43,612 nucleotides of DNA, from positions 1 through 43,612 of the forward strand of contig JAFMFH010000006.1 of the NCBI GenBank assembly GCA_017856235.1. Reading direction: 5' to 3'. The stretch is from Flavobacteriaceae bacterium (GTDB lineage: Bacteria; Bacteroidota; Bacteroidia; Flavobacteriales; Flavobacteriaceae). A model generated the notes under the pieces. That model was not told the DNA's origin. It saw only the letters and a list, made by a program, of their open reading frames with translations, and made no database searches. A program made the position numbers and the translations under genes. Positions 10,288 through 15,067 of this stretch are shown here, piece by piece (the stretch's first letter is position 1; the number at the start of each line of letters is the position of its first letter).

Positions 10288-10438
10288 ATTTTATTTTTTG
10301 GGTTTAAATGTAAATAGATTTATTCTTTTGAATGAAAAAAAAAATAAAAATTTAAAAATTGTTTAACGTATAGATCTTAAAAAAAAGGTGCAAAAAAAAT
10401 CAAAAAAAATATATTTAACTTAGATAAATTTTAACAAT

Positions 10439-11227
10439 ATGCGCTATTTAATTATAATACTAATCAGTTTATTTCAGTTTGGCTTTTCTCAAAGTTCAAT
10501 AGAAAGACTTCAGACTTCACCACGGCATCATGAATGGGTTAGTATTAAAACAAATACTCATGAAATTAACAGTTTTTTGGTATATCCTGAAGTATCTGAA
10601 AAAGTTCCTGTAGTTGTTCTTATACATGAAAACAGGGGACTAGACAATTGGGCAAGAAGCATGACAGATCAAATTGCTGAAATGGGGTTTATTGCAATCG
10701 CACCTGATTTTCTTTCGGGCTCTGCACCAAATGGAGGAGGAACAAATGATTATGAAAATTCAGATGCTGCAAGAAAAGCAATATATAGTCTTGACTCCAA
10801 TTTCATTAACGAAATTTTAAATAATACCGTTAATTATTCCAAAAAGATTCCTTCTAGTAATGGAAAAGTAGTTATTATTGGATTTTGTTGGGGAGGAAGC
10901 CAATCATTCGAATTTGCAACTCAATCGAATGAGATAGAAGCTGCAATTGTTTGTTATGGAACAGGCCCTTCAGATAATAACTCTTATTTTAATATTAGGG
11001 TTCCTGTATATGGTTTTTATGGTGGAGATGATAACAGAGTAAACTCGACAATTTCAGCTAGCGCGTCTGCTATGAAAGCTTCTGGTAATATTTTTGAGAC
11101 CATTATTTATAAAGGTGCTGGGCATGGTTTTTTTAGATCTGGTGAGAATCAAAATGCAAAAAAAGAAAATCGTTTGGCAAGAGAACAAGGACTTATACGT
11201 TTAAAAGAAATTTTAAGAGGAATTTAA
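10439..11227 (+). CDS. Exported dienelactone-hydrolase-family protein
   Basis: 262 aa alpha/beta hydrolase. A signal peptide ends at FSQ (residue 18), so it is probably periplasmic. The family's triad is visible: nucleophile Cys150 in GFCWGG, an Asp in GGDD (197-198) and His229 in GAGHGFF, plus the Glu of HENRG (64) that normally gates the Cys. Dienelactone hydrolases open lactone rings, but exported relatives act on unknown esters or thioesters, so the substrate is open. The Crp-type regulator begins only 4 bases after its stop and may share its transcript, which could tie it to the sulfur genes; this link is inferred from spacing only. Confidence 0.88.
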   Translation: MRYLIIILISLFQFGFSQSSIERLQTSPRHHEWVSIKTNTHEINSFLVYPEVSEKVPVVVLIHENRGLDNWARSMTDQIAEMGFIAIAPDFLSGSAPNGGGTNDYENSDAARKAIYSLDSNFINEILNNTVNYSKKIPSSNGKVVIIGFCWGGSQSFEFATQSNEIEAAIVCYGTGPSDNNSYFNIRVPVYGFYGGDDNRVNSTISASASAMKASGNIFETIIYKGAGHGFFRSGENQNAKKENRLAREQGLIRLKEILRGI

Positions 11228-11231
11228 ATCT

Positions 11232-11867
11232 ATGATTGTTCAAAAAGATCATGAATTGTTAAATCTAATTTTTGAAAGGAAACTTGTTGAAGAAATTCTT
11301 GATTTTGGTATTGTAAACACTTTTTCAAAAGGTGATATAATTGTTAATTATGAAGATACCCTTAAAAGCATACCCATAGTAATTGATGGTTTAGTTAAGG
11401 TTTTAAAAGAGAATAAAGATTCTGGTGAAAGTTTACTGTACTATATTAAAAAAGGTGATACTTGTTCAATATCAACTGGGTGCATGACTGGTTATAAAAA
11501 AAGTACTATAAAAGCAATTTGTGAAACAGACACAAAAATTATATTTTTTTCAGCTCTAAAAATGAATGAATGGATGCAAAAATATCCATCTTGGAGATTT
11601 TTTATAATTAATAGTTTTCAAGATAGACTTAATGAGCTTTTTGATATTATTAAATCAATTAGTTTTGATAATCTTGAAGAGAGAATAATAAGCTATCTTA
11701 GAAACAGATCATTAGTTATTAAATCAAAAATAATAATAACAACACATGAAGAAATAGCAAAAGAATTAAGCACCTCTCGTGTTGTAGTATCAAGAATTCT
11801 TAAATCTTTAGAATCTAATTCAAAGCTTGAACTTGGCAGAAATTCAATTACTTTATCTAATATGTAA
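11232..11867 (+). CDS. Crp/Fnr-family transcriptional regulator
   Basis: 211 aa: an N-terminal cyclic-nucleotide-binding-type beta barrel (about 10-115), a dimerisation helix, and a C-terminal winged helix-turn-helix with the typical EEIAKELSTSRVVVSRILK stretch (about 167-188). The cAMP phosphate-binding signature is absent. Instead Cys78 and Cys84 sit in GDTCSISTGC, with Cys97 nearby, positions where relatives that sense redox or sulfur species carry cysteines. A perfect TGTAAC-N4-GTTACA palindrome overlaps its own stop codon, directly upstream of the sulfur operon. The likely job is to activate that operon in response to persulfide or sulfide (inference). It could also be controlled from the hydrolase promoter upstream. 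Confidence 0.92.
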   Translation: MIVQKDHELLNLIFERKLVEEILDFGIVNTFSKGDIIVNYEDTLKSIPIVIDGLVKVLKENKDSGESLLYYIKKGDTCSISTGCMTGYKKSTIKAICETDTKIIFFSALKMNEWMQKYPSWRFFIINSFQDRLNELFDIIKSISFDNLEERIISYLRNRSLVIKSKIIITTHEEIAKELSTSRVVVSRILKSLESNSKLELGRNSITLSNM

Positions 11868-11879
11868 CCTATGTTACAT
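11862..11879. promoter_or_regulatory. Crp/Fnr-type operator, perfect palindrome
   Basis: ATGTAAC-CTAT-GTTACAT is a perfect 7+7 inverted repeat with a 4-nt spacer and the half-site geometry of Crp/Fnr sites. It overlaps the crp-like stop codon. Its centre (11870.5) is about 40 bases upstream of the start point expected from the -7 box at 11900-11907, the position of a class II activator site that replaces the -33 element. Confidence 0.75.
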
Positions 11880-11899
11880 TATTAAATTTATTAATGATT

Positions 11900-11907
11900 T
11901 ATTTTTG
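11900..11907 (+). promoter_or_regulatory. -7 box TATTTTTG of the sulfur operon
   Basis: TATTTTTG fits TAnnTTTG. No TTG -33 element lies 17-23 bases upstream; the palindrome occupies that space. The ATG of the exporter gene follows 6 bases later, so the transcript would be nearly leaderless. Confidence 0.6.
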
Positions 11908-11913
11908 CTTTAA

Positions 11914-12705
11914 ATGGAAACACTGGGATACATTGGAGCTCTTTTGATTGGATTAATTCTTGGTTTAATAGGAAGTGGCGGCTCTGTTTTGGCAGTACCT
12001 ATTTTTACTTATCTTTTTTTACTAGATGAGAAAGTTGCTACGGCTTATTCTCTTTTTGTTGTTGGGTTAACAAGTCTTGTAGGAAGCATTAACTATAATT
12101 TAAAAAAATTAATAAACTGGAATCAGGTGTTACTTTTTGGGTTACCATCAATAATATCTGTAGTTCTTGTTAGATATTTTATAATGCCTAATATTCCAGA
12201 CATAATTATAAGTATTTCTGGCAATGATATTTCAAGAAGAATATTAATTTTAGGATTATTTTCAATTCTTTTGATTTTGTCAAGTATAACAATGTTTATA
12301 AATAAACAAAGTAAAACTTCCGGAATTGATTTGAACTATTTCAAAATAGCATCAGAAGGTTTTATAGTGGGTGGATTAACTGGATTAATTGGTGCTGGAG
12401 GAGGGTTTCTAATTATACCTTCACTAGTAATTTTGGGTAAACTACCTATAAAAGAAGCAGTAGGAACATCATTGGTCATTATTTCGCTTAAATCGTTATC
12501 TGGATTTTTCTTTGGGGATGTTTTTTTAATTCAAATAGATTGGAGCTTAATTTTAAATTTTACTTTTATATCAATTATAGGAATATTTATAGGTAATTAC
12601 TTATCTGTTTATATTAATGCCAAATTATTAAAAAAAATATTTGCTGTTTTTATCTTTATTATAGGTTTCCTAATAATAATAAACGAACTACTAAATTTAC
12701 AATAA
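11914..12705 (+). CDS. TauE/SafE (TSUP) family sulfite/sulfonate exporter
   Basis: 263 aa integral inner-membrane protein with about eight hydrophobic helices. It shows the internal duplication of the TSUP family: GLIGSGGSVLAVP near residue 18 and GLIGAGGGFLIIP near 158 are matching glycine-rich repeats. Family members export sulfite, thiosulfate or organosulfonates. It is first in a four-gene operon and its stop overlaps the next start (TAATG), so translation is coupled to the persulfide dioxygenase. That enzyme makes sulfite, so sulfite export is the simplest role (inference). Nothing in the sequence is damaged. Confidence 0.92.
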   Translation: METLGYIGALLIGLILGLIGSGGSVLAVPIFTYLFLLDEKVATAYSLFVVGLTSLVGSINYNLKKLINWNQVLLFGLPSIISVVLVRYFIMPNIPDIIISISGNDISRRILILGLFSILLILSSITMFINKQSKTSGIDLNYFKIASEGFIVGGLTGLIGAGGGFLIIPSLVILGKLPIKEAVGTSLVIISLKSLSGFFFGDVFLIQIDWSLILNFTFISIIGIFIGNYLSVYINAKLLKKIFAVFIFIIGFLIIINELLNLQ

Positions 12706-14084
12706 TGAAAATAGAACAAATTTATACTGGTTGCTTAGCTCAAGGAGCTTATTATATTGAAAGCGAAAATGAAGTAGCAATTATTGATCCTCTTAGAGAG
12801 GTAAATCAATATATAGATAAAGCTAAAGAGTCAAACTCGACAATAAAATACATATTTGAAACTCATTTTCATGCAGACTTTGTAAGCGGTCATATAACAT
12901 TATCTAAAAAGACAGGAGGTAAAATAGTTTATGGTCCAACTGCTGAAACAAATTTTGATTCTATAAAGGCAAGGGATGGTGAAGTTTTTAAGATCGGTAA
13001 AATAACAATTACTGCAATTCATACACCTGGACATACCCTTGAGAGTACATGTTATTTACTTAGGGATGAGAATAATAAAGAAATTGCAATTTTTACAGGC
13101 GATACATTATTTTTAGGAGATGTAGGAAGACCCGATTTAGCTCAAGCAAATTTAAAATTAACAAAAGAACAACTTGCGGGTAAATTATATGATAGTTTAA
13201 GAACTAAAATAATGAGCTTACCGGATAATATCATTGTATATCCTGCTCATGGAGCTGGTTCTGCATGTGGTAAAAATATGATGAAAATTACATCCGACAC
13301 ATTAGCAAATCAAAAAAAAATGAACTATGCCTTAAATGAAAATCTTTCTAAAGAAGAATTTATAAATGCAGTCTTAGATGGCCTTGGCGAACCTCCTAAA
13401 TATTTCCCAGCTAATGTTAAAATGAATAAAGAGGGCTATAATGATATTAATAATATTCTTCAAAAAAATAGACCTTTGAAACCAGATGAAGTTGAACAAA
13501 TTGTTAATACATCTGAAACTATTATACTTGATGTTAGATCACCTGATGACTTTGAAAAAGCTCATATACCAAGATCAATTTTTATTGGTTTAGACGGATC
13601 TTTTGCTCCATGGGTAGGTGAGCTAATTGCAAATGTTGATCAAAAAATAATTTTTATTTGTGATACTGGTAGAGAAGAAGAAACTATTATCAGGTTATCT
13701 AGAGTAGGATTTGATAATACAATAGGATATTTGGATGGAGGAATTGCATCCTGGATTAATTCAGGAAGAGAAATAGATTCTGTAACATCAATTGATCCTG
13801 AAAAAACATCTCAGATTAATACAGAAAATGACCAAATCATTGATGTTAGAAAAAAATCTGAATTTGATATGGGTAGGGTCGAAAAAGCAAGTAACATTTG
13901 TTTATCAACTATAAATAATCACCATGATAAATTTTTAACAGATAATCACAAATACATTCACTGTCAAGGAGGATATAGGAGTATGATAGCTTGCTCTATT
14001 CTAAAAAGTAGGGGGGTTCATAATATCACAAACATTAGGGGGGGCTTTAAACAAATAATGAATTACACAAATATTATTATATGA
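12705..14084 (+). CDS. Persulfide dioxygenase fused to two rhodanese domains
   Basis: 459 aa. Residues 1-205 are a metallo-beta-lactamase-fold domain of the ETHE1 type: THFHAD (His54, His56, Asp58), His110 in HTPGH, Asp133 in FTGDT and His182 in PAHG. ETHE1 enzymes use one iron to oxidise glutathione persulfide to sulfite. Two rhodanese domains follow, about 260-358 and 368-455, each with a catalytic Cys (Cys319 in CDTGRE; Cys420 in CQGGYRS), so both can carry sulfane sulfur. The fusion suggests sulfur is handed between thiol carriers and the dioxygenase in the cytoplasm. Start and stop each overlap neighbouring genes, placing it at the core of the sulfur operon. Confidence 0.93.
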   Translation: MKIEQIYTGCLAQGAYYIESENEVAIIDPLREVNQYIDKAKESNSTIKYIFETHFHADFVSGHITLSKKTGGKIVYGPTAETNFDSIKARDGEVFKIGKITITAIHTPGHTLESTCYLLRDENNKEIAIFTGDTLFLGDVGRPDLAQANLKLTKEQLAGKLYDSLRTKIMSLPDNIIVYPAHGAGSACGKNMMKITSDTLANQKKMNYALNENLSKEEFINAVLDGLGEPPKYFPANVKMNKEGYNDINNILQKNRPLKPDEVEQIVNTSETIILDVRSPDDFEKAHIPRSIFIGLDGSFAPWVGELIANVDQKIIFICDTGREEETIIRLSRVGFDNTIGYLDGGIASWINSGREIDSVTSIDPEKTSQINTENDQIIDVRKKSEFDMGRVEKASNICLSTINNHHDKFLTDNHKYIHCQGGYRSMIACSILKSRGVHNITNIRGGFKQIMNYTNIII

Positions 14085-14641
14085 TTATGGAAAGTATATT
14101 AAATCCTTGGCCTTGGTATATTTCAGGCCCATTAATATCCATGATAATGTTTTTATTAATTTTTAATGGTAAAACATTTGGTGTTTCATCAAATTTGAGA
14201 ACAATTTGTTCTGTCTGTGGTGCAAATAAGTTTTCAAAGTTTTTTGACATTAAAGTAAAAGATCATTTATGGAATATAATTTTTATACTTGGAGCTTCTC
14301 TTGGAGGATTTTTAGGTCTTAAGTATTTATCTAAAAACTCTTATGTTGAAATTTCTGAAAATACAAAGTCTACTCTGAGGTTATATGAAATAGATAGTTT
14401 TGATAGCAACTATATGCCTTTAGAATTATTTGCTATAGAAAATCTTGATTTAAATAATATAACAATGCTTATTGCTGGAGGACTTCTAATTGGTTTTGGA
14501 ACCAGGTATGCTGGAGGATGTACATCAGGTCATGCAATAACTGGACTTAGTCAGCTTCAGTTAGGGTCCTTAGTTTCGGTAATTGGTTTTTTTGTTGGGG
14601 GGCTTTTAATGATTCATCTAATTTTTCCAATTTTATTTTAA
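14081..14641 (+). CDS. YeeE/YedE family (PmpA-like) sulfur-compound transporter
   Basis: 186 aa membrane protein with about four hydrophobic helices. The signature GFGTRYAGGCTSGHAITG (about 147-164) is the YeeE/YedE motif; its conserved Cys lines the thiosulfate or sulfide path in the family. The ATG overlaps the dioxygenase stop (ATGA); a second in-frame ATG lies 6 bases later. With the next gene it makes up a split YeeE-type pair in which each protein supplies half of the transporter. Transport of thiosulfate or a persulfide-related ion is inferred from family and operon. Confidence 0.9.
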   Translation: MIMESILNPWPWYISGPLISMIMFLLIFNGKTFGVSSNLRTICSVCGANKFSKFFDIKVKDHLWNIIFILGASLGGFLGLKYLSKNSYVEISENTKSTLRLYEIDSFDSNYMPLELFAIENLDLNNITMLIAGGLLIGFGTRYAGGCTSGHAITGLSQLQLGSLVSVIGFFVGGLLMIHLIFPILF

Positions 14642-15054
14642 TGAGAAAGCTATATTTTTTTTTAGTAGGAATTGCTTTTGGTATTATTATGATCAAATCC
14701 GAGGCAGCTTCATGGTTTAGAATATTTGAGATGTTTTACTTTCAATCTTTTCACATGTATGGTATTATTGGAAGTGCAATAATTACTGGTGTAATAGGCA
14801 ATCAATTAATTAAAATTTTTAAAATAAAAGACTTTAATAATAACAGTATTCAATATCCAAATAAGGATAATACTTTTAAAAGATACATAATAGGTGGATC
14901 AATTTTTGGATTAGGCTGGGCTCTAGTAGGGGCTTGCCCTGGACCAATGTTTGTACTTTTTGGTGCAGGGTTTTATTCTGTTATAATTATCATTATATCA
15001 GCTGTATTAGGAACCTTTTTATATGGACTTATACAAAATAAGCTACCTCATTAA
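14641..15054 (+). CDS. YeeE/YedE-like (PmpB/DUF6691-type) membrane protein
   Basis: 137 aa, about four hydrophobic helices, with the second-half YeeE motif GLGWALVGACPGPM (about 97-110), again holding a conserved Cys before Pro-Gly-Pro. It begins in the overlapping TAATG of the previous gene and ends the sulfur operon. It probably pairs with the preceding protein to form the full channel. No terminator hairpin follows; the 3' end carries one copy of a 15-bp direct repeat that recurs at the miaB start. Confidence 0.9.
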   Translation: MRKLYFFLVGIAFGIIMIKSEAASWFRIFEMFYFQSFHMYGIIGSAIITGVIGNQLIKIFKIKDFNNNSIQYPNKDNTFKRYIIGGSIFGLGWALVGACPGPMFVLFGAGFYSVIIIIISAVLGTFLYGLIQNKLPH

Positions 15055-15067
15055 AAAAGTCATTATA
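15053..15067 (+). repeat. Direct repeat, copy 1 (AAAAAAGTCATTATA)
   Basis: A perfect 15-bp copy begins in the stop codon of the YeeE-like gene. The second copy is exactly 100 bases downstream. The pair encloses the whole upstream region of miaB. Confidence 0.75.

Follow-up and report, generated by a model that had tools for sequence, protein, structure and literature searches.

A putative class II operator of a Crp/Fnr-family regulator upstream of a sulfur operon in Flavobacteriaceae

Organization of the regulator and sulfur operon locus

The window, a stretch of 43,612 nucleotides from a Flavobacteriaceae bacterium (contig JAFMFH010000006.1), contains on its forward strand a gene for a 211-amino acid regulator (11232-11867) with a cNMP_binding and an HTH_Crp_2 domain. 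Both domains score above their cut-offs (PF00027, 32.3 bits against 27.5; PF13545, 30 bits against 27), which places the protein in the Crp/Fnr superfamily. It scores far below the NCBIfam equivalog models for CRP (38.8 bits, cut-off 266) and NtcA (TIGR03697, 24 bits, cut-off 244.95). The helix-turn-helix, HEEIAKELSTSRVVVSRILKSLE, is encoded on the same strand at 11745-11813 and includes a recognition helix of the form SR-V-VVSR, in which R183, V184, and R188 correspond to R180, E181, and R185 of CRP. A dienelactone hydrolase (DLH) family gene (10439-11227) ends 4 bases before the regulator; none of the other regulator loci examined showed such a neighbor.

Four genes follow on the forward strand and together make up a sulfur operon, tauE-pdo-yeeE-yeeE. 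The first, at 11914-12705, encodes a TauE/SafE sulfite exporter family protein and is predicted to open the regulated operon. It is followed by a gene for a persulfide dioxygenase-type metallo-beta-lactamase fused to two rhodanese domains (pdo, 12705-14084), a YeeE/Sulf_transp half-transporter (14081-14641), and a second YeeE/DUF6691 half-transporter (14641-15054).

Between the regulator and tauE lies an 18-base perfect palindrome, ATGTAACCTATGTTACAT, at 11862-11879 with its center at 11870.5, composed of ATGTAAC and GTTACAT arms around a CTAT spacer. The TAA stop codon of the regulator (11865-11867) falls within its left half-site. This overlap and a TAnnTTTG promoter box behind the palindrome had both been pointed out in an earlier sequence-only reading, and both can be read directly from the DNA. 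In the genome of 1.22 Mb, this palindrome contains the sole exact TGTAAC-N4-GTTACA. When up to two mismatches were allowed, three matches were found in the window against 1.75 expected. The palindrome by itself is therefore unusual without being proof of an operator, and the proof was drawn from relatives.

Predicted promoter anatomy and transcription start

The −7 promoter box, TATTTTTG, occupies 11900-11907 on the forward strand and begins 21 bases after the end of the TGTAACN4GTTACA 16-mer. The composite of operator, spacer, and TAnnTTTG has a single exact match in the genome, at this locus. A start-site map of Flavobacterium psychrophilum places the TAnnTTTG box at −12 to −5 (PMC9723704), so that the transcription start is predicted at 11912 on the forward strand and the predicted dimer site is centered at exactly −41.5, the class II position. 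The same position is known from class II promoters of Escherichia coli CRP, whose TGTGA-N6-TCACA sites share the 16-base frame seen here. The sequence-only reading had placed the start at 11911, with the palindrome about 40 bases upstream in a class II-like arrangement. The arrangement agrees with the −41.5 center and with a distance to the box that is near-invariant among relatives, and the predicted start lies close by, although the exact base is better given as 11912.

With the tauE ATG at 11914, two bases after the predicted start, the transcript would be near-leaderless with a 2-base leader. Leaderless transcripts make up 5.5% of those in F. psychrophilum, so such a leader would be uncommon there (PMC9723704). 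In same-genus genomes, the box of the native pdo promoters likewise lies only a few bases from the ATG, and the short leader therefore looks normal for the genus.

No TTG was found 18 to 22 bases upstream of the box. The absence of a −33 TTG noted in the sequence-only reading thus holds at this promoter, but it is not diagnostic, because none of the five TAnnTTTG boxes upstream of long open reading frames in the window has an exact TTG at this distance.

Conservation of the operator among relatives

A search of 24 other genomes of the genus turned up no regulator orthologue, and the footprint was therefore made at the family level and above. A relative of the regulator is present in 181 of 200 family genomes (E ≤ 1e-30). 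Palindrome matches were scored from −30 to +170 of the regulator stop, with a 200-base stretch inside the gene as a control. The best match downstream of the regulator reached at least 10/12 in 70 of 117 loci, while the in-gene control never exceeded 9/12. The gene order regulator-tauE-pdo is common, and elsewhere yeeE, SulP, or pdo directly follows the regulator. Among related loci in which a TauE-like gene comes next, 36 of 43 (window excluded) carry a palindrome of at least 10/12 close behind the regulator, with flanks that drift; this is the outcome that the sequence-only reading had anticipated for an alignment of the region between regulator and TauE. The overlap of operator and stop codon, in which TGTAAC supplies the TAA, also recurs in L015, L016, L049, L063, L079, L095, L098, and other loci.

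The spacing between operator and promoter box was examined in 195 sites of at least 10/12, collected from the loci with no regard to a box. A TAnnTTTG sequence (at least 5/6) lies 20 to 22 bases downstream of 163 of them, compared with 5 to 26 in the other 3-base bins, and in 143 aligned sites the spacing is exactly 21 bases. Conservation in the aligned sites is confined to the two half-sites and TAnnTTTG; spacer, upstream, and −33 bases are near background, and a TTG −33 element is not conserved at the aligned promoters. The position of the operator, fixed near −41.5 relative to the core box in the family alignment, matches that of class II activators with the start site predicted from the box.

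The exact composite promoter was found in 139 of the 200 family genomes; three contain its reversed control. It is present in 138 of the 181 genomes with a regulator (E ≤ 1e-30), leaving 43 in which the exact composite is absent, and in one of the 19 without (Fisher p 1e-9). The palindrome is almost certainly, as judged from this comparative evidence, the docking site of the Crp-type regulator encoded just upstream. Across the flavobacteria it recurs at an unchanged distance ahead of sulfide-detoxification genes.

These data also bear on whether the regulator could act from this site as a repressor, as does BigR, which is among the known regulators of similar pdo/TauE operons (PMC5823870). The fixed center at −41.5 is the position of class II activators, as in NtcA-activated promoters, and the promoters share no conserved TTG −33 element, both of which argue against repression and make it improbable.

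Covariation of operator and recognition helix

Arg183 and Arg188 are kept in all 211 aligned relatives of the regulator; 151 of these have Val at residue 184, and 60 have Glu. Changes at the corresponding residue 181 of CRP reportedly alter the preference at the fourth half-site base. Sites were searched with no constraint on this base. The fourth base of TGT(A/G)AC is A in 165 of 188 Val-type half-sites and G in 66 of 82 Glu-type half-sites, an association with a Fisher p of 7e-28 when counted by half-site with relatedness ignored. One Thr-type regulator inside the family has a GG site. Three loci (L161, L163, and L164) are exceptions to the code, with Glu-type regulators and A/A adjacent sites (AGTAAC...GTTACT).

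A tree built with residue 184 masked provided four supported independent pairs, in which nearly all draws show a joint change of operator and residue; with only four supported contrasts, a formal p below 0.05 is out of reach. The covariation of the operator base with the recognition-helix residue ties the operator to the adjacent regulator.

Two other explanations of the palindrome can be weighed against this covariation. It might form an RNA hairpin, for example a terminator of the regulator gene, instead of binding a protein, and a short hairpin is indeed possible at the stop codon (−6.3 kcal/mol, z −1.85). The hairpin has no directly following U-run, and the half-sites keep their sequence in addition to their pairing as well as the fixed 21 bases to the −7 box. 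The same site also stands before genes that do not follow the regulator, and its bases covary with the recognition helix. We rejected the hairpin or terminator as extremely unlikely on the basis of sequence conservation, fixed spacing, and helix covariation. Alternatively, the site could be real but bound by another Crp/Fnr protein, given that some flavobacteria have several relatives of the regulator and that sites also occur in trans. Against this, the present genome encodes one protein of this type at E ≤ 1e-8 and has one exact composite site, site presence tracks this regulator across genomes, and the base changes with the helix residue where gene and operator are adjacent, so that binding by another protein appears very improbable. 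The comparison of relatives shows the operator itself, its spacing, its link to the regulator, and its target genes.

Predicted regulon

Ranked by number, the genes directly behind the sites encode pdo-rhodanese, tauE, SulP, an outer-membrane efflux protein, the regulator, yeeE, DUF983, a YgaP-like transmembrane protein, and an SQR-like flavoprotein. Genes for cytochrome c, peroxiredoxin, and a molybdopterin oxidoreductase are rarer. The underlying counts are no unbiased census, because either the regulator or the best site served as the center of each locus. The sites appear to mark mostly a sulfide and sulfane-sulfur oxidation regulon. Some targets (TolC, DUF983) have no obvious sulfur role, and among the loci fetched by pattern (L130-L159) the TolC/OEP outer-membrane efflux protein gene is the commonest behind the composite (10).

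A second exact composite site was not found in the genome studied here, where the regulon appears to be a single operon. Among matches with up to two mismatches, none lies upstream of the DLH-regulator pair; autoregulation, which occurs in relatives, is therefore not supported in this genome.

A candidate sensor residue

Cys78, encoded at 11463-11465 on the forward strand, is the only cysteine that is invariant in the 211 aligned relatives, in both Val and Glu types, and may serve as a thiol or persulfide sensor. A manual alignment places it in the beta-roll, beside the G71-E72 position of CRP. In CRP, cAMP is contacted by Gly71-Glu72 and Arg82 (PMC4868304). By manual alignment only, Ser79, Ile80, and Lys90 of the window protein stand at the cAMP-contact positions, and the equivalent of Glu72 is Met or Ile in relatives of the regulator, which makes cAMP unlikely as the ligand. 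Since the targets remove persulfide, persulfide-modified Cys78 is the preferred signal, and a sulfide-derived persulfide acting on this invariant residue is likely the cue for the regulator.

Proposed mechanism and relation to known systems

On the basis of these features, we propose with a probability of roughly 0.88 that a Crp/Fnr class II activator, encoded by the adjacent gene, uses the palindrome as its operator and controls tauE-pdo-yeeE-yeeE with NtcA-like recognition and likely in response to persulfide. The regulator dimer would bind TGTAAC-N4-GTTACA centered at −41.5, substitute for the −33 contact, and recruit RNA polymerase with the Bacteroidetes primary sigma factor to the TAnnTTTG box. 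DNA recognition would be NtcA-like, given that Arg183 and Arg188 are retained and that Val184, in place of CRP Glu181, accompanies A rather than G as the fourth half-site base, and a sulfide-derived persulfide on Cys78 would be the likely signal. The operon, once switched on, would convert persulfide or sulfane sulfur to sulfite and then export it. Local activation of the next four genes by the adjacent regulator, as the sequence-only reading had suggested, gains support from conservation, spacing, co-occurrence in 200 genomes, residue-base covariation, and the sulfur operon itself. Activation as opposed to repression, the start site, and the signal are the parts of this model that we infer.

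The regulator is NtcA-like in operation yet it is not NtcA. Both are Crp-family proteins that act as dimers in the same 16-base frame centered at −41.5; the GTAN8TAC core of cyanobacterial NtcA operators is contained in GTAACN4GTTAC near this position, and the NtcA recognition helix, STRVTVTR, has the same Arg-Val pair as the regulator. In contrast to NtcA, the regulator has sulfur instead of nitrogen targets, a conserved TGTAAC half-site, and the invariant Cys78. NtcA promoters carry a TAN3T box, whereas the promoters described here carry the Bacteroidetes TAnnTTTG. With E. coli CRP, the regulator shares its domain architecture and the equivalents of Arg180 and Arg185. However, CRP combines Arg180-Glu181 with TGTGA, while the regulator has Val at the second of these positions and A at the fourth base.

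The target genes are nearly the same as those of the BigR and FisR operons of Proteobacteria, which contain persulfide dioxygenase, TauE, YeeE/YedE, and SQR genes (PMC7315123; PMC5823870). BigR is an ArsR-type repressor and FisR a sigma-54 activator, whereas the regulator described here belongs to the Crp/Fnr family and has an operator in the class II position. The comparison points to a third type of regulator in charge of genes that an ArsR repressor or a sigma-54 activator controls in other bacteria. We know of hardly any description of operators for Crp-type regulators in flavobacteria. A literature search, for the most part of journals outside subscription, identified no Crp/Fnr protein linked to this operon or motif in Bacteroidetes, and the regulator and its sites apparently constitute a large, undescribed gene-control system.

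More broadly, these proteins could form a family-wide Crp/Fnr subfamily of persulfide-sensing (Cys78) class II activators of sulfide oxidation in Flavobacteriaceae, split into Val and Glu types with TGTAAC and TGTGAC changing in step, a proposal to which we give even odds. If it is true, the Val/Glu split would be a natural version of the specificity change at CRP residue 181, and it is directly testable as an amino acid-base code. The comparison yields promoter anatomy, regulon, predicted sensor residue, and recognition code together, all of which can be tested in cultivable flavobacteria.

Probable replacement of a native pdo gene by the regulated cassette

The DLH-regulator-tauE-pdo-yeeE-yeeE genes form a forward-strand cassette of approximate extent 10370-15062, flanked by native topA and miaB genes. 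The interval between topA and miaB is occupied in 13 same-genus genomes by a single pdo, 55 to 60% identical to that of the window and with no regulator, and no palindrome of at least 11/12 was found at this native locus. Up to about 10369 and again from about 15063, the sequence flanking the cassette is near-identical to that of these genomes, with clean breakpoints, and in the closest same-genus genome topA is 93% and miaB 96% identical. Because operator-less pdo genes lie between near-identical flanks in these genomes, the native gene was most likely exchanged in place for the regulated cassette of about 4.7 kb.

One same-genus genome (G003, contig C12, locus L285) has a pdo gene elsewhere that is 78% identical to that of the window, with the tail of a tauE in front, a cut-off yeeE behind, and no regulator. 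Judging by this arrangement, the copy looks like a decayed relic of the same cassette. At the contig end, the same locus also contains a 114-amino acid open reading frame (oriented 8-352) that encodes a simple MRLLLMK-like repeat.
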